A stretch of 64,000 nucleotides of DNA from Metallumcola ferriviriculae (GTDB lineage: Bacteria > Bacillota > JADQBR01), in contig NZ_CP121694.1 in the NCBI RefSeq assembly GCF_035573695.1, positions 720,501-784,500 of the forward strand, read 5' to 3'. The position numbers and the translations under genes were made by a program. Each line of letters opens with the position of its first letter. Position 1 is the stretch's first letter. The notes under the pieces were generated by a model. It worked only from the letters and a program-made list of their open reading frames with translations. It was not told where the DNA came from and did not search any database. Of this stretch, positions 29,881-56,436 are shown piece by piece.

Positions 29881-30237
29881 GGGGGCGAATTGGCTTCGAC
29901 GGGGGAAGTGTTGGCATAGGTGGCCAGGCGAGATTCCATCGGCTCGTTAAACGGTGGACCTTATATTAACTGGCGAAGATAATTTCGCACTAGCTGCGTA
30001 AATACGCAGCTCATCCGCCCGGTTCTTGCCCATAGAGCCGGTTCCGGGTGTCAAACTTAATGGGCTACCCTGAACACTTTACCTGTTGGTTTTAGGGGAC
30101 ACTTAAAGCAGGTTAGTCTTTAAGGAAATCCTGTCTCTGGGAGTTCCTTTGGGCGAATTTTAAATCAGAGACTATCCTGGTAGAAGCTTATGCAGGTGCT
30201 CTTTCGGACGTGGGTTCAAATCCCACCGCCTCCACCA
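29881..30237 (+). ncRNA. ssrA: Transfer-messenger RNA (tmRNA)
   Basis: The 357-base gene starts GGGGGCGAATTGGCTTCGAC and ends CGCCTCCACCA, which pair as the acceptor stem with CCA encoded. The T-loop GGTTCAAATCCC lies near the 3' end. The tag reading frame begins at GGC 29972, just after TAACT, and encodes GEDNFALAA with a stop at 29999-30001 in the loop of a strong hairpin (GCTGCGTA/TACGCAGC), the usual position. The molecule rescues stalled ribosomes and tags the peptide for proteolysis with SmpB, which is encoded just upstream. The 3' end is a common phage attachment site; here it marks the border between core chromosome and accessory DNA. Confidence 0.98.
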
Positions 30238-31833: not shown

Positions 31834-34341
31834 TTAGTCTTCTCGTATCGCATCCGTATCAAATATTCTGTCAAGCTCTTCATTTGATGTTATGCCACGC
31901 ACCTTATTTCTAATCGTTGTTTTTTCCATGTCTAAACGATAGAAATGCTCACGTCCATCAACGCCTTTCATTAAGCGTATCAGCTGAATTCTTCCGAATT
32001 TATCCCAGTGATTTTCTGCAAACTTTGCTAGTCCAACTGCTTTAGGATAATTGTCTTTGCGGCTAGGATCATGTGGTTCTAAAATATCAAAAACATAGCC
32101 GTGGGAATCTGCGCGAACAACTACCAAATCTGGGAACATAGAAGTGGTAACTCCACTGACTTCATATGGAATTTCGAGCGACCACTTCTTACGGTCAAGA
32201 TTACGCAGCCAACAGACAGCACCGTTTTTAAGTTCCTCTTCAATAATTCCATTTTCCCAAGTGTTCAAAGATGTGTGGAATTGACCATCTTCAGAACAGT
32301 AGAGATGCTGATCATAACCTGTGTTGCTATCCGGAACAGAAACATCAATTGAATCCGGTAATATCCATGGTATAGAGATTGGCTTTGTTGAAGCATTTGT
32401 TAGTCTCTCATAAAAAGTTTTACGTAATTCATTTAACTTGGCGATTGATCTTTTATTGACCTCATACAATGCAATAAACTTTTCTTCTGCATAAGCATTT
32501 AACTCTTCCATTGTAGCAGTATCGTTTGTTAGAACAATAACTTCAATTTTTACATCAATATGATTGCGTGTACTATTTCGAATCCAGTACTCTTTGTGCA
32601 AGCCTTCTCCTAGGAGTCTGCCAGATTGTTCAAAATGCCTTGAAATATCGTATTCTGACACAGTCATAGTCTGTGATGATTCGTCAAAAGAATATGCATT
32701 GTCTCCATAGTCAAATGTAAGTGTACCAAGTGGGAACCCGGTGATTGAAGCGGCTCTTTCATTAAAATCAGTATTTTCTTTAATTCTATTAATTTCGTTA
32801 CTCATTTTTGACAGGACTTCATTTTTTATGGTTTTCTGAGCTCCCAAGTCAATACCGTCCATCGTTAGTGCACGTGATATTTGCATTAATAGCTTTAGCG
32901 GTGATTGCTTACGGACTGAATCTATACGATAGGTAACAAGAGTGTCCATTGCATCAAATACATCAGTAAATTCTAAGTTTCGTTCAAGTGTAACAAGTTC
33001 TTTGTTAGTTCCAGTCTCTGTTGGTAATATAGCTTCGCTGTCTCGGAGGGCATTAACAACATTCTCTACTGTTTCCTCATTGAAATATGGAAGGAATAAG
33101 CTAACGCTATTAAGCTCAGCATCAGAAGAAATCCTTCTGGCTAAAGGTGTACGAATTACACGTCCCAATAATTGAGCTATATAAGTGTAATCCTGTGCAC
33201 TACGGAACGACATCATTGTTTCAGCCCTTGGACAATCCCAACCTGTTGAAAGATTCATTTTAAAGAAAACTACCATAACCTTTTCTTCGTCATTAATTCG
33301 TGAAGCTTCGATTTGCGGAATGTCTACATTACGAACATTAAGATTGCTGCGGTCATTAAATGTGTGAACAACTTCTCCTGGTTGCAATTTCCGGCCCAGT
33401 GTTTCTTCAAGCAATTCAATGCAAGTCCCTAAATCAGTATGAGTTGCTTCACGATCATTACCGTCCTCTACTTGAATTACCAAAATTGGACTAACCATAT
33501 TTTCATCTTCGCGTTCACAATAAGCTTTCCAATGATTGCATTTTTTTTGCCAGTTATCAACCGCACCTTTAAACATTGTCATGTCCGCCCTTAATTGAAT
33601 ATCAGGATAATGGATGATGATTCTATCTTTTAATAGACCAGATTCACGAACCTGTTCAGGTGGAACGATAACTTTTTGAACGGTTGATGTGGTTCCTGCA
33701 ATCAAGTTATCGAACCTCTGGGGTGTTGCTGTCACACCCATAACTAAAGGCATGACGCTAAGTCTATCATCCTTGCTACCTTTGATGAATTTTTGCATTA
33801 TTGACTGTGCCTTATTTTCTGCTTGAACAGATGTATGAGTTCCCCGATGTGCTTCATCAATTACAACATAAAACTGTGTAGGATTACGTTTAGCTGTATT
33901 TGTGAGTGTTTCCCAGATGGAGTATTGACGAGTATCGGAGGTTCCAGTTAGCAATTTATCGGTGCCTAGTTTTTGAGTGTTCAAAAAATATATGTGGCCT
34001 CCTTCAAAATACTCAGCATTAAAATTTGAGTCAATTGTAACCAAATCACGGATTTGTATCTTATCGGATTTACTTTCAATTTTCAATCTAGTTTGTTCGT
34101 TAAGTTCAGGAGAATCGGATAACCACACAAAAATTGAATCTGGATCTCCAATATCATCAGCACTGCCATATAAAATATCTTCGAAAAGTGTTGTCATTAT
34201 GATAGTTTTACCTGAACCGGTAGGAGCAGAAAATGAGATTATCTGGGGATCTCGTTCGCTCCACATCGTGTGTGCTTTTTTGATCTTATCATGTAGTTCA
34301 TCAAGAGCTGTTTCTTGAAAAGGAAATAATATATCTCTCAT
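31834..34341 (-). CDS. res: Type III restriction enzyme, Res subunit
   Basis: Res is the ATP-dependent translocase and nuclease of type III restriction. The 835-residue protein has Walker A SAPTGSGKT (residues 39-46), DEAH box VVIDEAHRG (162-165), GVTATPQRF, the late helicase motifs MVVFFKMNLSTGWDCPRAE and IAQLLGRVIRTPLARR, and a C-terminal PD-(D/E)xK-like nuclease around residue 745 (FPDLVVVRADSHGYVFDILE). It is somewhat shorter than EcoP15I Res (about 970). Its start shares one base with the mod stop and has AGGAGGG before it, so it is the last gene of the leftward operon. It cuts when two recognition sites are unmethylated, together with Mod. Confidence 0.9.
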   Translation of the reverse strand: MRDILFPFQETALDELHDKIKKAHTMWSERDPQIISFSAPTGSGKTIIMTTLFEDILYGSADDIGDPDSIFVWLSDSPELNEQTRLKIESKSDKIQIRDLVTIDSNFNAEYFEGGHIYFLNTQKLGTDKLLTGTSDTRQYSIWETLTNTAKRNPTQFYVVIDEAHRGTHTSVQAENKAQSIMQKFIKGSKDDRLSVMPLVMGVTATPQRFDNLIAGTTSTVQKVIVPPEQVRESGLLKDRIIIHYPDIQLRADMTMFKGAVDNWQKKCNHWKAYCEREDENMVSPILVIQVEDGNDREATHTDLGTCIELLEETLGRKLQPGEVVHTFNDRSNLNVRNVDIPQIEASRINDEEKVMVVFFKMNLSTGWDCPRAETMMSFRSAQDYTYIAQLLGRVIRTPLARRISSDAELNSVSLFLPYFNEETVENVVNALRDSEAILPTETGTNKELVTLERNLEFTDVFDAMDTLVTYRIDSVRKQSPLKLLMQISRALTMDGIDLGAQKTIKNEVLSKMSNEINRIKENTDFNERAASITGFPLGTLTFDYGDNAYSFDESSQTMTVSEYDISRHFEQSGRLLGEGLHKEYWIRNSTRNHIDVKIEVIVLTNDTATMEELNAYAEEKFIALYEVNKRSIAKLNELRKTFYERLTNASTKPISIPWILPDSIDVSVPDSNTGYDQHLYCSEDGQFHTSLNTWENGIIEEELKNGAVCWLRNLDRKKWSLEIPYEVSGVTTSMFPDLVVVRADSHGYVFDILEPHDPSRKDNYPKAVGLAKFAENHWDKFGRIQLIRLMKGVDGREHFYRLDMEKTTIRNKVRGITSNEELDRIFDTDAIRED

Positions 34342-36659
34342 TATGAATCCCTCCTACTTCCTAATACAAAGTTATCAATATAATCACGATACAATTGATA
34401 GGTGTTTTTAACTTTTATTCCGGCAGTCATTTCGCGAAAAGCATCTTCAGAATTAGTTACAAAATAGACTACTTGGATATTACCCTCTTCAGCTAGTTTT
34501 GCTGTGAATTCTGAATACATAGTTTCATCAACTAATACTGCAAAACCATTTTGAGGAAGGATTAACATTTCCGGCTCATCATTGATACTTAATTCAGGTC
34601 TTTTACCTTTAGCACCAGACTTAAGCCAAAGCAACGGCAGTATTTCGTGAAATTGCTGTCCTAGAGTTACATTATTTCTATCTAAGAACCCTAGTTTAAA
34701 GTATTCAACATTCGAAGGAAACCCTTCACTCATTGGTCGTCTAATTTGAGATGTAACATTCACTGGACCAAGCAAATCGGAAACTTTTTCTTTTATTTCC
34801 TTAAATAGTTTCGTCTCTTTAACAACGATATAAAAATCAGTAATGTGATCTTGATCATTTAACGCTTCCAACCATTCATCAATTACGCTTGTATCAAAAA
34901 TTATTGAGGCTGTATGTTTATTAGAAACAATATATTTAGTATTCGCTTTTACTAAAGTTTGTGGAAGTTGGGTCTTTCCATCTTTATTGCGTAGCAAAGA
35001 AAGTAATTGTTTTTTATCTTTGGCTTTTAATTTAGAAGGGTCCCCTACAAACCCAAGGTGATAAAACGATCGATTTACTTCTTGGATTGTCGTTTGGGTA
35101 CTTATATAATCTCCGCCAATTGGAGAGCCCTCTACGCACTTTCCTAATATGCTGTATTTTGTTCGCGGCCAGGTTACTGATCGACATATACCTAGTTCTT
35201 CCCATTTTCGGTCACCGGGTTGGTGTCCATCTTTTCGTAGTGTCTTAGCTTCAGAATCAGATACTTCATTATTAGTCACTAAAATACATCTACGCTTACC
35301 TTGATCCTCTGCGTTTATTAGGTTTACAGCATGAAGAGTTGTTCCACTACCTGCAAAGAAGTCAACAACCAAGGCGTTAGGATTTTTTGATAGGGCTGGT
35401 TCAATTGTTTTTAATACAGTATATAAAGATTTTGGGAAAGGAAATTTTGTTTTGATAATTTTTTCAACCAGTTCACTTCCATAAACACCACCAGCATCGA
35501 GTTCAGGTGCGGACCATACTGTTTTTGGTGGAGATAACTCAGAAGTAAGGAATAAATCAATCCCATTATCTTTAGGTAATGCTACGATTCGTTCAAAATG
35601 AGAAGAAATTTCATTATAAGAATAATTCCAACGTCGTTCAACTCCATCTTGATCTATAGGCCATACTTCAATAACCTCATTGTCCAATTGAATATTACGG
35701 CCAGACGGATGAAAGTCATCAGGTGGTTGTTCCCCAATATCTACTATATGCCCGGTTTTAACATAAATTGGATAGAACATAGAACGTCTATCTGTACGTA
35801 ATGAAAAATGTCCCCAACGTCTTAATTTTCGTGGGGTTTCATTCTCTGATGGTGTACGAGCCAGTGTTTTTGCTGATTTTGGTGTCAAATAAACAACATA
35901 CTCATTAGTTCTTGCGAAGTTATTTGTTATGTTTCCACGTGGATTGTGAACGACTGTAATAATCGTCATTTCATGGTTATCAAATAAACCGTTAGTTTCT
36001 AGGAGACAATAAAGATGCGCTAGTTCATTATGATCTATAGCAATTGCCATTACACCGCTTGGTTTGAGAATTCGACCAGCAATTTTTAACCGTTTTTGCA
36101 TCATGGATAGCCATTTGCTGTGACGCCAGTTATCGTTTGAATCTACATAATTATTGTTATATTTCCAGTCGCGCGCACCAGTATTGTACGGTGGATCAAT
36201 ATAAATGCAGTCAACTTGTTTGGGATAAAGATATTCTAGTAGTTGGAGTGCATGATAATTGTCTGCCTCGATAATACTGTGCCATAAGTTGCTATCAGAA
36301 GCATTTTCAATTAAATCAACAGGTTGGAGCATCGGAAATATTGGTTCACCAAATTGAGCAACAGAAACCAATTCAGTTAGCAATAGATGCTCAACATCCC
36401 CGGTTGATTTGTTTCTGCATAAAGCCGTTTCACCATTCAGTTTTAATACTAAATATAGGTCATTTATATTTCCTGCTTTATGTGCTACTGTTGAACCGCT
36501 TTTAATCGCAACATCATAAAGAGGGGTGCACTCAGGAATATGTTCTTCAAATAATAGTCCAAATTTTTTATTCTTTGAAATACGGGCAACTTCCTGGCTC
36601 AAGCGATTACGCAATGATGAGTCTGGAATTTGCCGTAATAAATCATTAATTGCAGCCAT
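34341..36659 (-). CDS. mod: Type III DNA methyltransferase, Mod subunit
   Basis: Mod recognises the target site and methylates adenine N6 on one strand; with Res it forms the restriction complex. The 772-residue protein has DPPYNTG at residues 155-161 and the SAM-binding motif VVDFFAGSGTTLHAV near residue 432, i.e. the beta-class order typical of type III Mods, with the target recognition region between them. AGGAGG precedes its ATG. It begins 17 bases after the DUF2326-type ATPase gene on the same strand, so the ABC-3C genes and this R-M pair appear to be one transcription unit. The recognition sequence cannot be predicted here. Confidence 0.92.
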   Translation of the reverse strand: MAAINDLLRQIPDSSLRNRLSQEVARISKNKKFGLLFEEHIPECTPLYDVAIKSGSTVAHKAGNINDLYLVLKLNGETALCRNKSTGDVEHLLLTELVSVAQFGEPIFPMLQPVDLIENASDSNLWHSIIEADNYHALQLLEYLYPKQVDCIYIDPPYNTGARDWKYNNNYVDSNDNWRHSKWLSMMQKRLKIAGRILKPSGVMAIAIDHNELAHLYCLLETNGLFDNHEMTIITVVHNPRGNITNNFARTNEYVVYLTPKSAKTLARTPSENETPRKLRRWGHFSLRTDRRSMFYPIYVKTGHIVDIGEQPPDDFHPSGRNIQLDNEVIEVWPIDQDGVERRWNYSYNEISSHFERIVALPKDNGIDLFLTSELSPPKTVWSAPELDAGGVYGSELVEKIIKTKFPFPKSLYTVLKTIEPALSKNPNALVVDFFAGSGTTLHAVNLINAEDQGKRRCILVTNNEVSDSEAKTLRKDGHQPGDRKWEELGICRSVTWPRTKYSILGKCVEGSPIGGDYISTQTTIQEVNRSFYHLGFVGDPSKLKAKDKKQLLSLLRNKDGKTQLPQTLVKANTKYIVSNKHTASIIFDTSVIDEWLEALNDQDHITDFYIVVKETKLFKEIKEKVSDLLGPVNVTSQIRRPMSEGFPSNVEYFKLGFLDRNNVTLGQQFHEILPLLWLKSGAKGKRPELSINDEPEMLILPQNGFAVLVDETMYSEFTAKLAEEGNIQVVYFVTNSEDAFREMTAGIKVKNTYQLYRDYIDNFVLGSRRDS

Positions 36660-36676
36660 ATTTTAGCCTCCTGTGT

Positions 36677-38314
36677 TTAATTACTTGATTTGTACTTGCT
36701 CCATGAACGTCCAAATAATTCATTGCCATCTGATAAGCGTAGAATTGTAGTATCTTCTAAAATTTCATGTGCTTTCTCAGTAGTTGAATCAGCTTTATCA
36801 AAAGCAATAAATATTTGTCGTCTACTTGATTGGTAGCGTTCCAATATATGTTCTAAATGTATGTCCTCAATGCGTTTAATAATGTTGGAATCATGAATCA
36901 GGGTAGGTAGTGGGCATAGTTCCAATATGCTTAAATCGTACACCACAAGGCTCTTAAACGCTGTACCTTCACTGGTGTTTCCCGGTGTTTCAAAGAATAT
37001 TTCTTTTTTGGGAGTAATTTGTAGTTTAGGAGCAGTTTCGTGTTGTTCGGTTACTATTCCATTGATTATCTTCATTTTATAGTTGACTGCTTCCTGTATT
37101 TCTTCTAATTTTTCTGTTTGCATTGATAATAAGTTCTCCATTTTATTCTCAGCTTGGGCTCTAGCTTCCTGTAGTTCTTTTTGATGGATTAATTCAGCCG
37201 TCTCTTCTTCCAATTTATCAATACTTTTTGAAACATTAACGCATTGAGATAAGACCCTCTCAGACATTTCTTTAGCCAAACCAGAATCTTCAATTTTTGC
37301 ATTTAGCACTTCAATTTCCTTGTCATACTGATAAATAAGAGGTTGTATCTGGATGATCTCTTGATGCATTTCATCATTTAATATTTTCCTGATTTTTACA
37401 TGAAATTGCTCAATTTCTTCGAAGGCCTTTAAATTTGCATCTGGGAAAAAATGTGTTAGAGAATGAAACTCATCAGAGATTTCTGATTTACTATCTGAAA
37501 TATTAGTTTTAATAGCGTTAACTTCAGATTGAAGTCTATTTCTCTTTCGATTGAAATGATTAAGCTCCTTTTGAATCTTAGTAATTCTTTCAAAAGATTG
37601 AGTATCAAATCCAAACATTGCTAATTGCGCATCTTCATTACTTTTCATGAGTTTTTGCAGTCTTACCTTAAGTGACTCTATTGCTTTTTTGTTCATTTCG
37701 ATTTTTTCTATATCGACCTGCTGGCGCTGCTTCGATTTATACTGTAATGCTTTTACGCCCAGCTCTTCTTCCATAGTTTTGATTGAGGTTAGTATTTCAC
37801 TATGCCCGAAAAACTTCATCAGGAAATCAACAGCTTTTTCATCTTGCTCTCTAGGTTTAATTAATAATGGATATTTTTCTAGTGTGTTTTTTCGTCCATA
37901 AATACGAAAAAATCGCTCAGTAATTTCTCCGAACTTGAGCATGGGTAGTCCAATGCTATATTCCTGGTACAGTAAGGCTCTATATTCTTCTAATGATAAT
38001 TTTTCAATTAAATGGTAGTCTTTGTCGCTTCGATATACATTCTTTGGATCTTCAGTGTTTCGATAAAAATAATGCGGTTTACCTTCAAACTCGAAAACGA
38101 AAAAAATAGTATGTGGCCCAATCTCTGATTTTATATCATCTGAGAGAGAGTAGTAACTGTCACCACCGAAGACATAGTCAATAATCCAAAGAAATGTTGA
38201 TTTGCCGATAGCATTGCTTCCGCCATCATTACCTAAAACTGTATTAAGGCCGGAACTAAAATCTATTGTTTGATGCCCTGGAGCAAATTTATCACAGTGA
38301 ATCTGTTTTAACAT
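36677..38314 (-). CDS. DUF2326-type ABC ATPase (ABC-3C component)
   Basis: A 545-residue SMC/Rad50-like ATPase. Walker A is GSNAIGKST (residues 32-40), followed by WIIDYVFGGDSYY. A long predicted coiled coil covers about residues 190-420, broken near the middle. The C-terminal half has TSEGTAFKSLVVYDLSIL as the signature-like helix and PTLIHDSNIIKRIED, where an Asp-Ser replaces the usual Asp-Glu of Walker B. This is the DUF2326 pattern, the ATPase of many ABC-three-component conflict systems. GGAGGG lies 9 bases before ATG (38314). Its start overlaps the middle-component gene by 23 bases. The exact effector mechanism is unknown. Confidence 0.8.
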   Translation of the reverse strand: MLKQIHCDKFAPGHQTIDFSSGLNTVLGNDGGSNAIGKSTFLWIIDYVFGGDSYYSLSDDIKSEIGPHTIFFVFEFEGKPHYFYRNTEDPKNVYRSDKDYHLIEKLSLEEYRALLYQEYSIGLPMLKFGEITERFFRIYGRKNTLEKYPLLIKPREQDEKAVDFLMKFFGHSEILTSIKTMEEELGVKALQYKSKQRQQVDIEKIEMNKKAIESLKVRLQKLMKSNEDAQLAMFGFDTQSFERITKIQKELNHFNRKRNRLQSEVNAIKTNISDSKSEISDEFHSLTHFFPDANLKAFEEIEQFHVKIRKILNDEMHQEIIQIQPLIYQYDKEIEVLNAKIEDSGLAKEMSERVLSQCVNVSKSIDKLEEETAELIHQKELQEARAQAENKMENLLSMQTEKLEEIQEAVNYKMKIINGIVTEQHETAPKLQITPKKEIFFETPGNTSEGTAFKSLVVYDLSILELCPLPTLIHDSNIIKRIEDIHLEHILERYQSSRRQIFIAFDKADSTTEKAHEILEDTTILRLSDGNELFGRSWSKYKSSN

Positions 38315-38531
38315 AGTGTAGTACCCTCCCTTCCTCAATAATTTCAATTTGGCCTAATGCAAACAAGCAATCTAAGGCGCTTAAAAAATCCCCCATAGTT
38401 CCTTTACCTAAAGATACTTGTTCAAATAGTTCTTTTGGTATCATATCGCTTTCTTCCAGTGCTTCTAGGATATTAGGGAAGAGGGCAATGATGCTGTTTG
38501 TATATGTGGTTACTTTATTAGGTAATCTCAT
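38292..38531 (-). CDS. Small ABC-3C middle component
   Basis: A 79-residue protein squeezed between and overlapping both neighbours (14 bases with the HNH-like gene, 23 with the ATPase gene). It has the look of a small winged-helix adaptor: helical, then IEIIEEGRVLHYV as a beta wing. Size and position fit the 'middle component' (MC6-like) of ABC-three-component systems, predicted to link the ATPase to the effector. ATG 38531 with GAGGTG before it is preferred over GTG 38543. The family assignment rests mostly on position. Confidence 0.65.
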   Translation of the reverse strand: MRLPNKVTTYTNSIIALFPNILEALEESDMIPKELFEQVSLGKGTMGDFLSALDCLFALGQIEIIEEGRVLHYVKTDSL

Positions 38532-39753
38532 CGAACACCTCACACCTTTGCACGAAGTAGGAGATAATTATCTCACAAGCTTCTCTGTATTTTCGTCCTG
38601 TTTTTTCAAATAGTGTTTGTACCAGTAGGTGGTATAGATCGCTTTGTGATATGTTTGTTTCATTCGCATCTTCATACATTCTTTTTATGCTTTTTGCAAA
38701 TTTATTGGTATTCAATTTATTCTCTCCAGCTAAGCGATCTAAGGAGTCGTTAACCCCCTGGTACAATCTGTTGACATCGTAAAGTACGCGCTCTCTTAAG
38801 CGCTTTTCAGCAATTTTATTTTCTACTTTTACAGGCTTTATTTTAAGTTGCGTATCGACTGTGACATCCATTAAATCAACTTCTCGTAGAACATGCTCGA
38901 TCTGTTTTTCAATCTTATAACGTGAAGTTGCTTCTCTTGCAGTTATAAATGTTTCCAAATCATGTTTTGCAGACAGTAGGGCTTGTTTCTCTCCATCAGA
39001 AGCATTTTGGATTTCACGCTCACATTCAACACACAAAACAATATCTTCATTTTCGGAAAGGTTAATGATTTTAGCGTAGTTGACATCGTTGCCTTCTTTT
39101 TTTATGCCTAAAACTTTACTACAACGCTGACATTTACCTCCGGTTTCCGATAGTAGAACCAAAGTGCGTGCATCCATAGCAATTTCATGGGCCGTTTCAG
39201 TAGAAAAATTGCTGTAGCTACCCTGAAAGATTACATTGATTTTTTGATCTTCAAAGCTTTCTATGTACTCATGGGTTATTTCTTTTATACTATCTTCGCA
39301 GTTTCTATTATTGACATTAAGGACTGTATAAAGAAATATCCCTGCTAAAAAATCTCCTAAGACAAAAGCATTACGGTTAGCGATATCTTCCTTTGTCATA
39401 TCGTTCACAATTTCAATAACAGTATCATTTTCGATTGTATCATCAGAATCAATTATATCTTTCAATGCTAAAACTATCAGGCTTCTTTTATTACCATCTA
39501 ATAAAGGCAATACACTTCTTTCAAAGTATTCTGACAGTTCTTTCTTGTCTGCTGTTAAAGCAAGTTCAGTGACATGAGGAGATAGGTTTTTCTTCCCTTT
39601 CAACAAATCTGAAACAGTCCCATCGTCGTGACGAATATCATAAGTAGGCGCAATAGAAAGAAGCAATGTACCACACAGCCACTTTTGGGTAACACTCTTC
39701 ACTTTGCAAAGTTTTAGTATTGTTGTGAAACTACCAAAACATAATTTTTTCAT
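38518..39753 (-). CDS. HNH-like zinc-ribbon protein (ABC-3C effector/CTD component)
   Basis: A 411-residue protein. The N-terminal part (SFTTILKLCKVKSVTQKWL, then KGKKNLSPHVTELAL) is helical and resembles the N-terminus of ABC-three-component proteins as I recall them. The middle has a treble-clef zinc site of HNH type: GGKCQRC (C208, C211) and IVLCVEC (C241, C244). The usual catalytic histidine is lacking: the family's A-H-I is A-K-I here (K228), and the histidine after the last cysteine pair is Glu. It may therefore be a structural or DNA-binding zinc domain and not an active nuclease. The C-terminal helical part ends inside the next gene. It is second in the leftward operon. Confidence 0.65.
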   Translation of the reverse strand: MKKLCFGSFTTILKLCKVKSVTQKWLCGTLLLSIAPTYDIRHDDGTVSDLLKGKKNLSPHVTELALTADKKELSEYFERSVLPLLDGNKRSLIVLALKDIIDSDDTIENDTVIEIVNDMTKEDIANRNAFVLGDFLAGIFLYTVLNVNNRNCEDSIKEITHEYIESFEDQKINVIFQGSYSNFSTETAHEIAMDARTLVLLSETGGKCQRCSKVLGIKKEGNDVNYAKIINLSENEDIVLCVECEREIQNASDGEKQALLSAKHDLETFITAREATSRYKIEKQIEHVLREVDLMDVTVDTQLKIKPVKVENKIAEKRLRERVLYDVNRLYQGVNDSLDRLAGENKLNTNKFAKSIKRMYEDANETNISQSDLYHLLVQTLFEKTGRKYREACEIIISYFVQRCEVFDEIT

Positions 39754-40560: not shown

Positions 40561-40625
40561 TCTACGGATTTTAGGCTTCTGCGGATTTTCAAAACCAAAA
40601 TTTGAAAACCAAAGGAGCCAATAAT

Positions 40626-41114
40626 ATGCAAAAAAAGTACAAAACAAGCCCAAATAAGAGAACGGAGTATATTTACTATCCAGCAGATGGAACTAAAATT
40701 ACCATTAGCCCTGGAGAAGCTTCGAATTCATTTATTGAATTACTGCACAGCATGGATGATAACGAAGTAGATGAACAGAGACGTTATGACTATCGAGTGA
40801 CTACTCATCTGGATGCATACCATGATGGTGAAGATGAATCTGCAAATGACCGCAATAAATATCTTGCAGACAATAGCACTAATCCAGAAAAGCTACTTAT
40901 TGAAGCTGAAAAAGAAGCCGAGCATCTGGATATGCTGGACAAGTTAACCAAGGCTATGGATTGCCTCCTTCCCCAACAAAAGGAGCTCTTTAAGAAGGTC
41001 TATATCGAAAACCGAACCAATGTGGATATCGCTACAGAAGAAGGAGTTACAGAGACAGCTATTCGTAAACGATTGAAGAAGATGCACGAAAAATTAAGAA
41101 AAGTACTTTCATGA
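40626..41114 (+). CDS. Phage sigma-70 region 4-like regulator
   Basis: A 162-residue protein whose C-terminal half is a sigma-factor region 4: LTKAMDCLLPQQKELFKKVYIENRTNVDIATEEGVTETAIRKRLKKMHEKLRK (in parts around residue 110-160). The N-terminal half has an acidic linker. Such proteins act as phage transcription activators or alternative sigma-like factors. ATG 40626 has AAAGGAG 7 bases upstream. It has no region 2, so it probably works with the host enzyme or sigma factor. Confidence 0.75.
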   Translation: MQKKYKTSPNKRTEYIYYPADGTKITISPGEASNSFIELLHSMDDNEVDEQRRYDYRVTTHLDAYHDGEDESANDRNKYLADNSTNPEKLLIEAEKEAEHLDMLDKLTKAMDCLLPQQKELFKKVYIENRTNVDIATEEGVTETAIRKRLKKMHEKLRKVLS

Positions 41115-49550: not shown

Positions 49551-50886
49551 ATACCAGGTCTATGCAACAGACTATATCCTCTCCCATCCCGTTGCAGCAG
49601 TTCTGCTTGATATGGGGCTTGGTAAGAGCGTTATCACGCTGACTGCTATTTTTGACTTGACACTGGACAGCTTTCTCGTCCGTAAGGTGTTGGTCATTGC
49701 CCCACTTAGAGTAGCAAGGGATACCTGGCCAGCCGAGATTGAAAAATGGGATCATTTGCAGGGCTTGACATACAAGGTCGCTGTGGGCTCGGAAAAGCAA
49801 AGGAAATCAGCTCTCCTACAGAAAGCACAGGTGTATATAATCAACCGGGAGAATGTTGAGTGGCTCGTTCACCGAAGCGGCATTCCCTTTGACTTTGACA
49901 TGGTGGCCATCGATGAGTTGTCTTCCTTCAAATCCCACCAGGCTAAGCGGTTTAAGAGCTTGCTGAAAGTCAGGCCCAAAGTAAAAAGGATTGTAGGCTT
50001 GACCGGCACGCCTTCCTCAAATGGACTAATGGATTTGTGGTCAGAGTATCGGCTCTTGGATATAGGGCAGCGGTTAGGAAGATTTATCGGTAAATACCGC
50101 GATAACTACTTTGTGCCGGATAAGCGTAACCAACAAGTGGTGTTTTCCTATAAGCCAAGACCTGGAGCAGAAGAAGCAATCTATCAGCTGATTTCTGACA
50201 TTACCATCAGTATGAAGGGTTCTGATTATCTCAAACTGCCGGAACTGCTACTAAACGAAGTGCCTGTCCGGCTATCGGAAAAGGAAATGGAAACTGTCAA
50301 AACCCTAAAACGAGACCTTATTGCTACAATCAAAGGCGAAGAAATCACAGCATCAAACGCAGCTGGGCTATCCGGCAAACTTTTGCAGATGGCAAATGGT
50401 GCCGTGTATGACGATGATGGTGCGGTGATACACATTCACGACCGTAAGCTAGACGCTTTGGAGGATCTAATCGAAGCAGCCAATGGAAAGCCTGTCCTAA
50501 TAGCCTATTGGTTTAAGCACGATATTGCCCGAATCAAAAAGCGGTTTGCAGTGGAAACACTGGACAGTTCTGATTCCATCAAACGGTGGAACAGCGGTGA
50601 AATCCCCATTGCAGCAGTCCACCCCGCTTCGGCCGGACATGGATTGAACCTGCAAACTGGCGGATCCACCCTTGTTTGGTTCGGTTTGACATGGAGCCTG
50701 GAACTTTATCAGCAGACCAATGCCAGGCTTTGGCGGCAAGGACAAAAGGACACTGTAGTCATTCACCATCTTATAGCTAAAGAAACGATAGACGAGCGAG
50801 TGATGAAAGCTCTGAAAGATAAGGACAATACACAAGCCGCACTCATCGATGCGGTCAAGGCTACATTCAAAGGGGGATTGATGTAA
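49531..50886 (+). CDS. SNF2-type helicase
   Basis: A 451-residue SF2/SNF2-like ATPase: RPHEYQVYATDYIL, Walker A LLDMGLGKSVITL, VLVIAPLRVARDTW, a DEAH-like VAIDELSSFKS, GLTGTPSSNGLMDLW, and late motifs HPASAGHGLNLQTGGSTLVWF and QQTNARLWRQGQ. ATG 49531 follows GGAGGG by 7 bases. It likely assists phage replication or recombination with the VRR-NUC nuclease. Confidence 0.9.
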   Translation: MKYRPHEYQVYATDYILSHPVAAVLLDMGLGKSVITLTAIFDLTLDSFLVRKVLVIAPLRVARDTWPAEIEKWDHLQGLTYKVAVGSEKQRKSALLQKAQVYIINRENVEWLVHRSGIPFDFDMVAIDELSSFKSHQAKRFKSLLKVRPKVKRIVGLTGTPSSNGLMDLWSEYRLLDIGQRLGRFIGKYRDNYFVPDKRNQQVVFSYKPRPGAEEAIYQLISDITISMKGSDYLKLPELLLNEVPVRLSEKEMETVKTLKRDLIATIKGEEITASNAAGLSGKLLQMANGAVYDDDGAVIHIHDRKLDALEDLIEAANGKPVLIAYWFKHDIARIKKRFAVETLDSSDSIKRWNSGEIPIAAVHPASAGHGLNLQTGGSTLVWFGLTWSLELYQQTNARLWRQGQKDTVVIHHLIAKETIDERVMKALKDKDNTQAALIDAVKATFKGGLM

Positions 50887-51320
50887 TGAACGCAAAGGAA
50901 TATTTATCCCAGGCCTTTCACCTAGACCAGAGAATTAATAGTAAACTTGAGCAGGTGGCTAACCTAAGAGAACTTTCTAGCAAAGCCACTGCTACCATTC
51001 ATGCCGAGCGAGTAAGCGGTACAAAGAACAGAAGTCCCATGGAAAATGCCGTTGTTAAGTTGGTAGATCTTGAGCATGAGATTGATAGAGATATTGATAA
51101 GCTGGTGGATTTAAAACGGGACATCATTAATGTTATTAATTCAGTGAAGCAACCCGAGTATCATCTTTTGCTGGAACTTAGGTATTTGAATTACAAGACT
51201 TGGGAAGAAATTGCAGAGCACATGAACTACGGTTGGCGTAATGTCCACTATATTCATGCAAAAGCATTAAAAAAAGTAAAACTGGACATTTCTTTGCATT
51301 GTTTTGCACAGTCACCCTAA
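50886..51320 (+). CDS. DUF1492/ArpU-like phage late regulator
   Basis: A 144-residue protein with an N-terminal coiled coil (RINSKLEQVANLRELSSKA) and a C-terminal sigma region 4-like helix-turn-helix (HLLLELRYLNYKTWEEIAEHMNYGWRNVHYIHAKALKKV, in two halves). DUF1492/ArpU/RinA-type proteins switch on late phage genes. Its position is exactly at the early/late border. It overlaps the helicase stop by one base. Confidence 0.8.
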   Translation: MNAKEYLSQAFHLDQRINSKLEQVANLRELSSKATATIHAERVSGTKNRSPMENAVVKLVDLEHEIDRDIDKLVDLKRDIINVINSVKQPEYHLLLELRYLNYKTWEEIAEHMNYGWRNVHYIHAKALKKVKLDISLHCFAQSP

Positions 51321-53490: not shown

Positions 53491-53533
53491 GTTGCCATTT
53501 TGAACACAGCACACGAAGAAAGGAGTGCGAGAG

Positions 53534-53971
53534 ATGACGGAAGTGGAAAAGCAGCAAATTCATGACCTCCGGCTTAAAGGGGTTGGATATAAGGCCATTG
53601 CTGCAGTGCTAGGGAAGTCCCGAGATAGCGTTCGTGGCTATTGTAAAAGAAATGGCCTCGATGGGGATTCGAGAGTTGTAGCACTTAACGTTAAAGAAAA
53701 AATTAAAAATCATCTCCTCTGCTCCTATTGTGGCAAACCTATTAAACAAAAAGGACGCGGAAGGGTGCGGAAGTTTTGCTCGGAATTTTGCCGGCGGAAA
53801 TGGTGGAGAGAAAATCCCCAAGCAAGGAACAAAAAGGACACAGCAACCTATCAATATACTTGCCCGCATTGCGGCAAGGAGTTTAGCTGCTACGGGAACA
53901 AGAAACGAAAGTATTGTTGCCATGACTGCTATATCAAATCAAGATTTTGGAGTGAAGAAGATGGAATTTAA
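53534..53971 (+). CDS. HTH plus zinc-finger phage protein
   Basis: A 145-residue protein with an N-terminal helix-turn-helix of resolvase/sigma style (QIHDLRLKGVGYKAIAAVLG, then RDSVRGYCKRNGL) and two zinc ribbons: CSYCGKPIKQKGRG...FCSEFCRRKW and CPHCGKEFSCYGNKKRKYCCHDC. It is probably DNA-binding. ATG 53534 follows AAAGGAG. It overlaps the methyltransferase gene by 11 bases, and the two are frequently found together, so a joint role is likely. Confidence 0.75.
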   Translation: MTEVEKQQIHDLRLKGVGYKAIAAVLGKSRDSVRGYCKRNGLDGDSRVVALNVKEKIKNHLLCSYCGKPIKQKGRGRVRKFCSEFCRRKWWRENPQARNKKDTATYQYTCPHCGKEFSCYGNKKRKYCCHDCYIKSRFWSEEDGI

Positions 53972-55190: not shown

Positions 55191-55194
55191 ACCC

Positions 55195-55247
55195 TTGCTA
55201 AATCTTGTGTTTAGAGTGATATATAGAATACCACAAAACACAGGAGG
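55195..55247 (+). promoter_or_regulatory. Leader element, copy 1
   Basis: TTGCTA, then CTTGTGTTT (55204-55212) that can pair with AAACACAGG (55236-55244), whose last GG belongs to the AGGAGG ribosome binding site. The loop holds AGAGTGATATATAGAATACC. A near copy lies at 55611-55664. Confidence 0.6.
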
Positions 55248-55255
55248 TAATGAGA

Positions 55256-55567
55256 ATGAGAGCACTTTTCGGAAGAAAAATGGCAAGCCTTGAAGAACTC
55301 ATGGAGGCTACCAGACAAGCAAAGAAAGAGGGATTTACTGGATCAACTTATGAGGTAACAAAGGAGATTACACTTAACGATTATGCTTTTCAGGAATTCG
55401 TAAAGGACCTGCTTGAAGACCAACCTTGGATTGAGAAAGACGATGGCGGTTCAAATCAAAACGGGGAGATAAGGTGCATCAGGGTGACAAATCTTGATAC
55501 CGGCGAGCGGGTGCTAGTAAACAGCGAAGGTTATGATTACCCAAGGTATACGGCCATTGAAGAATGA
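55256..55567 (+). CDS. Small phage protein after the methyltransferase (DUF6329-like)
   Basis: A 103-residue acidic protein (SLEELMEATRQAKKEG, AFQEFVKDLLEDQPWI, RCIRVTNLDTGERVLVNSEGYDYPRY). I recall similar proteins as DUF6329, of unknown function, common beside ParB-methyltransferases in clostridial phages. ATG 55256 is 8 bases after AGGAGG. It carries its own leader and terminator, so it can be expressed as a single unit. Confidence 0.65.
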   Translation: MRALFGRKMASLEELMEATRQAKKEGFTGSTYEVTKEITLNDYAFQEFVKDLLEDQPWIEKDDGGSNQNGEIRCIRVTNLDTGERVLVNSEGYDYPRYTAIEE

Positions 55568-55572
55568 ACAGA

Positions 55573-55597
55573 AGCGGGCTTAGCGGCCTGCTTTTTT
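55573..55597 (+). terminator. Terminator after the small protein gene
   Basis: AGCGGGC (55573-55579), loop TTAGCG, GCCTGCT (55586-55592), then TTTTT. Confidence 0.85.
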
Positions 55598-55610
55598 GAT
55601 TAGAAACATC

Positions 55611-55664
55611 TTGCTATTTCCTGTGTTTAGAGTGATATATAGACTACCAAAACACACAGGAGGG
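55611..55664 (+). promoter_or_regulatory. Leader element, copy 2
   Basis: TTGCTATTTCCTGTGTTTAG then AGTGATATATAGACTACC, about 90% like copy 1. CCTGTGT (55620-55626) pairs with ACACAGG (55654-55660), again overlapping the GGAGGG ribosome binding site. Confidence 0.6.
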
Positions 55665-55671
55665 ATAAAGA

Positions 55672-56436
55672 ATGGATAGAAAAGAAATGGTGAAAAAGCT
55701 GAGTGAGTTCCTAGGGGTAAAACATAAGTACTTAGGAGCGCCCAGTTTTGCTTATGAAGTTGCGGCAGGAGAAAAGATCTACACCATTGACAGGCAGGGA
55801 ACCATTACAACTGCAGGTGGGAAGATTACAACTTTGGAAGAGATTTTGCAGGCAGAGCAGCCCGAAGAAACGGGTACACCAGAAGGTAATGAAGATAAAC
55901 CAGAACTCATTGGCTTTGACGGTTGTGAAGTCAAACTACCCCTCGAAGGGCACACCGGGGTGACATTACAAAACATCGTGAACATGCTTGCCAGCAAACA
56001 ACACCTCATCATGAAGGCTTTTAAGTTGACGGAGGAATTGTTGGATAAGACCTTTGCAGAGGATTTAAGCTCGAAGGAAATTAGTACGATAGAAGATTTT
56101 AAAACAGCCCTCATGGAACTGGGGCCAGAAAGATGCCAAGGCTTAACTTTTGATTTTGAACAAGAGACCCTTACCTTTAAACTGGCAGCGGAGAACTTGG
56201 ATGCTGATAAGATAGCTGCTTTTCAAGACCTTATAGCATTTATCAACCAAACTGCCCAAAAGCTAAAACGCTCATCTTTTAAACCAACCCAAGATGACAA
56301 TCCCAAGTATGCTTTTAGAACTTGGCTAATTCGGTTGGGGATGAACGGTAAGGAGTATAAAACCACTAGGAAGGTGCTGCTTGTTAACCTTGAGGGCAGC
56401 GGGGCTTTCAGGAAAGTGGATATGAAAGATGAGTAA
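55672..56436 (+). CDS. Phage protein of unknown function ('virulence-related' family)
   Basis: A 254-residue protein. The N-terminal part (EMVKKLSEFLGVKHKYLGAPSFAYEV, in two pieces, and YTIDRQGTI) is a small domain; a variable linker rich in Glu, Pro and Gly follows; the C-terminal domain has FRTWLIRLGMNGKEYK and a basic end. Pipelines label this family 'virulence-related' without experimental support that I know of. GGAGGG precedes the start. It is the second gene with the duplicated leader. Confidence 0.65.
   Translation: MDRKEMVKKLSEFLGVKHKYLGAPSFAYEVAAGEKIYTIDRQGTITTAGGKITTLEEILQAEQPEETGTPEGNEDKPELIGFDGCEVKLPLEGHTGVTLQNIVNMLASKQHLIMKAFKLTEELLDKTFAEDLSSKEISTIEDFKTALMELGPERCQGLTFDFEQETLTFKLAAENLDADKIAAFQDLIAFINQTAQKLKRSSFKPTQDDNPKYAFRTWLIRLGMNGKEYKTTRKVLLVNLEGSGAFRKVDMKDE

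Follow-up and report, generated by a model that had tools for sequence, protein, structure and literature searches.

Two small genes and their leaders

The window analysed here is a 64,000-nucleotide stretch of Metallumcola ferriviriculae (contig NZ_CP121694.1, positions 720,501 to 784,500 of the forward strand). It contains a prophage in which two small genes, both in one cassette flanked by a DNA methyltransferase gene and, downstream, by terminase genes, are each preceded by a similar leader. The features of the locus, in window coordinates, are as follows.

55194–55226, + strand: promoter-like motif, copy 1, with the CTTGCTA box at 55194–55200 and the core TTTAGAGTGATATATAG at 55210–55226
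55203–55212, + strand: hairpin 5' arm, copy 1, TCTTGTGTTT, in the spacer between the two boxes
55236–55245, + strand: hairpin 3' arm, copy 1, AAACACAGGA, overlapping the Shine-Dalgarno (SD) sequence AGGAGG at 55242–55247
55256–55567, + strand: gene 1, 103 aa, DUF6329 / phrog_21303
55574–55597, + strand: intrinsic terminator after gene 1, GCGGGC-TTAGCG-GCCTGC-TTTTTT, read in the sequence
55610–55642, + strand: promoter-like motif, copy 2, with the CTTGCTA box at 55610–55616 and the core at 55626–55642
55617–55626, + strand: hairpin 5' arm, copy 2, TTTCCTGTGT
55654–55663, + strand: hairpin 3' arm, copy 2, ACACAGGAGG, with the whole SD (55658–55663) inside it
55672–56436, + strand: gene 2, 254 aa, matching part of phrog_2443 (labelled amidoligase enzyme)

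A start for gene 1 at 55250 was replaced by 55256 on the basis of SD spacing and homologues (MRALFGRK...). The two leaders are direct repeats (55194–55258 and 55610–55674) of 65 nt each, with 85% identity and a distance of 416 bp. The 18-mer TTTAGAGTGATATATAGA occurred twice in the window compared with 0.07 expected occurrences, and in the organism's own genome (3.72 Mb) beyond both leaders the 18-mer core was never matched with fewer than two mismatches. The pair of similar leaders described in the initial annotation is thus real, and these are the sole two copies in the genome. The terminator that the annotation had assigned to the gene between them is also present, though it was not among the entries of a generic terminator scan. 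The description of the two genes as unlinked was loose, as they adjoin and belong to the same cassette.

Predicted folds confirmed the proposed pairing of the arms with part of the AGGAGG site in both copies. In copy 1, TCTTGTGTTT pairs with AAACACAGGA in a predicted fold of −15.8 kcal/mol (z −3.0); the corresponding fold of copy 2, TTTCCTGTGT with ACACAGGAGG, has a predicted energy of −15.9 kcal/mol (z −2.05). Pairing takes in AGGA of the SD in copy 1 and the complete AGGAGG in copy 2. Predicted SD accessibility was 0.21 in the long RNA compared with 0.61 in the short RNA for copy 1, and 0.04 compared with 0.82 for copy 2.

A two-box motif shared with other phages

IMG/VR and the GTDB species genomes were scanned for the core, with the CTTG box kept outside the query. 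Alignment of the sites on the core gave the consensus CTTGMTATT-N9-TTYAGAGTGATRTATRK, in which CTTG is followed by A or C, mostly TATT and about 9 variable bases, and is preceded immediately 5' by an A-rich stretch. At 160 distinct sites the TTG of the CTTG box lay exactly 15 nt 5' of the core; among the offsets listed, none was 14 or 16. Motif loci were identified in Clostridia, Negativicutes, Erysipelotrichia, Streptococcus, Lactococcus, Gemella, Gardnerella and Atopobium, and some single matches, for example in Methylococcales, look like chance. The motif thus recurs in many prophages of Firmicutes and in some of Gardnerella and Atopobium. No convincing motif was found on plasmids. The full pattern was present in 19 of the 399 genomes of the phylum, compared with 0 for the reversed control. 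A sample assembled independently of the motif, by way of the neighbouring DUF1492 gene, contained 66 sites, all co-directional with the gene, and the reversed sequence again gave 0.

Downstream of the motif we found 38 small-gene families together with serine integrases, and phrog_2443, the family of gene 2, was the most frequent. The median distance from the end of a co-directional upstream ORF to CTTG was 28 nt, and read-through RNA is therefore to be expected at the motif. Terminators upstream of the motif showed a mild enrichment, and because it was only mild they were dropped as proof of a promoter. At one locus of Lactococcus reticulitermitis (L107, 2826–3943), four motif copies lie within about 1.1 kb, three of them with a near-identical leader; here small genes have been duplicated repeatedly together with their putative promoter. 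The integrase of the prophage lies past the end of the window, at window coordinate 78255 (L195), and is preceded by a diverged motif, CTTGCTATGTATCAAAATCAGAGTTAACATGTC, in which the −10 part is replaced. This diverged form was common to only 5 IMG/VR contigs and is therefore not a broad class.

As read from the sequence, a phage promoter whose −35 and −10 are non-canonical accounts for the conserved boxes better than an RNA that senses a ligand. This reading follows from the rigid spacing of the two boxes, the A-rich stretch upstream, the many unrelated genes downstream and a limit on the position of the SD, which never started before +22 (numbering from the first core T). Such a limit is what a promoter starting near +21 would show. 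Comparison with sigma-A promoters failed: the −35-like box reads TTGMYW, but no TATAAT-like −10 was found at 16–18 nt in any register. The leaders were also absent from the list of a promoter scan. Since the boxes are unlike those of sigma-A, a phage-encoded factor is likely.

Pairing of the spacer with the gene's own leader

Pairing energies were compared at 142 sites whose variable parts shared less than 62% identity. With the UTR of its own gene, the spacer arm paired at −8.82 kcal/mol compared with −6.85 kcal/mol for swapped UTRs (z −11.6; relatedness inflates these z values, so they are not readable as probabilities). Control segments gave z values from +0.1 to −4.3, the larger of which are probably due to relatedness and to a common base composition. 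Stems of at least 8 consecutive pairs were found at 54 of 212 sites compared with 12.3 ± 3.1 after swapping, and when the common TGTG arms were removed, at 28 of 161 compared with 7.7 ± 2.5. When each arm type was represented by a single site, the counts were 6 and 1.8, a small excess. Quite different arms pair in the same manner, as CTCCTTTCAG does with CTGAAAGGAG (L095) and CCTTCTTTAG with CTAAAGGAGG (L189). Thus, covariation in homologues, which the initial annotation had proposed as the check on its stem, was found beyond swapped controls and in a register-free form. The 3' arm floats: its position varies between sites, and it often lies over the SD. For this reason no column pair co-varied above chance when the register was held fixed. 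A simple model in which TTY pairs with the conserved AAA at +24 to +26 showed no association in a fixed register and was dropped. Serine integrases kept the complete core with weak UTR pairing (z −2.6 compared with −12.8 for other genes).

Predicted mean SD accessibility depended on where the RNA starts, and was 0.33 for a start at −30, 0.61 at the core and 0.65–0.69 at +21 to +24. Native arms gave a predicted accessibility of 0.367 compared with 0.415 for swapped and 0.405 for shuffled arms (P about 0.01); the predicted drop is partly generic, since swapped and shuffled arms also lower SD accessibility. Among 131 sites, the stem was strong and covered the SD in 60, strong but to one side of the SD in 23, and weak in 48. 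Hiding of the RBS is therefore well supported by these predictions at many sites, including both window copies, though not at all of them.

A model for the leaders and its candidate factors

What was observed directly is a motif with rigid spacing, the distribution of that motif and a complementarity that tracks each gene. We consider it probable that each leader is a phage-specific promoter built into an RBS-sequestering hairpin, by which read-through RNA is silenced and the gene's own RNA is translated. The promoter would consist of CTTGMTATT, about 9 variable bases and TTYAGAGTGATRTATR, and the spacer between the −35-like and −10-like boxes would be complementary to the 5'UTR of the gene, often across the SD. 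Read-through RNA from upstream would contain both arms, fold and be poorly translated; RNA initiated at the motif would start past the 5' arm and leave the RBS exposed. Cassette genes would then be expressed from their own promoter, probably via a phage sigma-like factor, rather than from passing operon transcripts. Here we infer the transcription start, the cognate factor, the effect on translation and the timing. With a little less than even confidence, we extend this to a phage lineage of Firmicutes and some Actinobacteria, which may have its own promoter class, a sigma-like phage factor and separately evolved anti-RBS arms that insulate its regulon.

The leaders could instead be promoters for a phage factor and nothing else, with the dyad as a by-product or in another role such as mRNA stability. 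The integrases, which keep the motif with weak pairing, are in keeping with this, as are the weak stems and the strong stems off the SD among the 131 sites and the modest advantage of native over swapped arms in SD accessibility. We nevertheless regard it as rather unlikely, given that complementarity to the own UTR lies far above the swapped controls with arms that differ between genes, and that the stem covers the SD in both window copies. Dyad symmetry about the core, present in the two window copies, would also suit an inverted repeat bound in the DNA by a dimeric repressor or activator. The arms, however, vary freely by gene, the spacing of the half-sites is not fixed, and no column pair rose above chance in a fixed register while register-free pairing was strong. 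A floating 3' arm with register-free pairing points to pairing in RNA, and a DNA operator seems to us very improbable indeed.

The initial annotation had favoured an RNA that responds to a ligand or protein, in which AGTGATATATAGA would be the sensing loop. A protein or ligand that opens or locks the RBS hairpin at the AGAGUGAUAUAUAG loop would agree with the register-free covariation of the stem, with the loop being the best-conserved part and with the hairpin predicted for full-length RNA. The main argument against a sensor comes from the integrases, which retain an intact motif without the stem. The spacing from CTTG to the core is fixed while the 3' arm floats, and the motif of gene 2 begins 13 nt past the terminator of gene 1, so that the simplest place for its transcript to start is inside the motif. 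A sensor is for these reasons improbable in our judgement, and the AGTGATATATAGA loop fits a −10 region; transcripts starting there would be without the 5' arm. As for an undescribed RNA motif, the element is recurrent and can hide the RBS, and an Rfam search at gathering and permissive thresholds found only tmRNA in the window and no relevant match for the leaders, but a promoter fits it better.

Promoters combined with RBS-hiding hairpins have precedents. According to PMC3014915, the T4 genes e, soc, 49 and I-TevI carry an RBS-sequestering hairpin that is relieved by a late promoter lying within its 5' strand. The leaders would resemble these genes in that the putative promoter region encodes the 5' strand, the RBS lies in the 3' strand and the gene's own transcripts would be without the inhibitory arm; in both window copies, the stem predicted for the longer RNA includes SD bases. 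Unlike in T4, the promoter sequence is a different one in unrelated phages and is deduced from sequence, and a single conserved promoter motif is shared by many genes whose arms are individual. If the model is true, a mechanism known from only a few genes of T4 is in general use in a widespread group of temperate phages, and cassette genes can lie in the main transcription path of the phage yet remain unexpressed from it. In the transposase genes of IS10 and IS50, RNA entering from outside folds over the RBS. Read-through is likewise silenced there and RNA from the own promoter translated, the role being insulation of a mobile element, but the arm comes from the element end, whereas in the leaders it belongs to the spacer of a putative promoter and the genes are internal to the phage. 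In the open-access papers searched, the core was not found in a phage context and occurred only in a single plant paper on an unrelated subject. The class of mechanism is known; the class of promoter, and its use across a regulon, seem to be undescribed. If the model holds, the signature CTTGMTATT-N9-TTYAGAGTGATRTATRK would serve to find members of the regulon, serine integrases included, and to identify the phage factor.

Activators of the RinA/ArpU type, and sigma-like proteins of Gram-positive phages that have region 4 only, are known for late operons. The window prophage encodes two candidate factors of a related kind.

50886–51320, + strand: DUF1492 / sigma region-4-like regulator (phrog_36), a candidate by co-occurrence with the motif
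40602–41114, + strand: small protein with sigma-70 region 4, encoded where the early genes begin, a second, putative candidate

A gene of this type (phrog_36/DUF1492) lies ahead of the cassette in the window phage, as it does in the remaining motif phages of the comparison; the putative target differs, being this cassette instead of a late operon, and the factor remains a candidate. Five further motif phages in the comparison cover this region, and all 5 have a DUF1492 homologue, in one case shortened; relatives of the 40602–41114 protein were found in 4 of these 5. The DUF1492 clade was present in 10 of 18 motif genomes compared with 26 of 380 others (odds ratio 17, P = 3e-7), and in the paired cases checked the motif lay 2.4–5.3 kb downstream of DUF1492 on the same strand. 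With 8 of the 18 motif genomes lacking the gene, 26 genomes carrying the gene without the motif, and no motif near 18 of the 43 DUF1492 loci for which the sequence was long enough, this co-occurrence indicates that DUF1492 marks the phage group and not the factor.

An HTH plus zinc-finger protein (phrog_2308), with two paralogues at 53525–53971 and at 77617–78052 (the latter beyond the window end, L195), was rejected as a universal factor; it accompanied 0 of 296 non-integrase motif genes and was absent from three motif phages. The family was found directly upstream of 42 of the 61 motif-driven serine integrases, and the protein is perhaps an integrase-associated regulator or directionality factor.

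The relative PV036459, labelled Ca. Heliusvirales in its record, was matched by 27 reading frames of the prophage region; in the literature searched, this order name, 'Heliusvirales', was found in one review only. The left flank of the prophage (31834–39753, − strand) carries a Type III restriction-modification pair (REase 31834–34341, MTase 34341–36659) and beside it, also on the − strand, genes for a DUF2326 ATPase (36677–38347) and a HamA-like DUF1837/ABC-3C protein (38518–39753). The tmRNA gene (29881–30237) lies about 1.6 kb before these left-flank genes.
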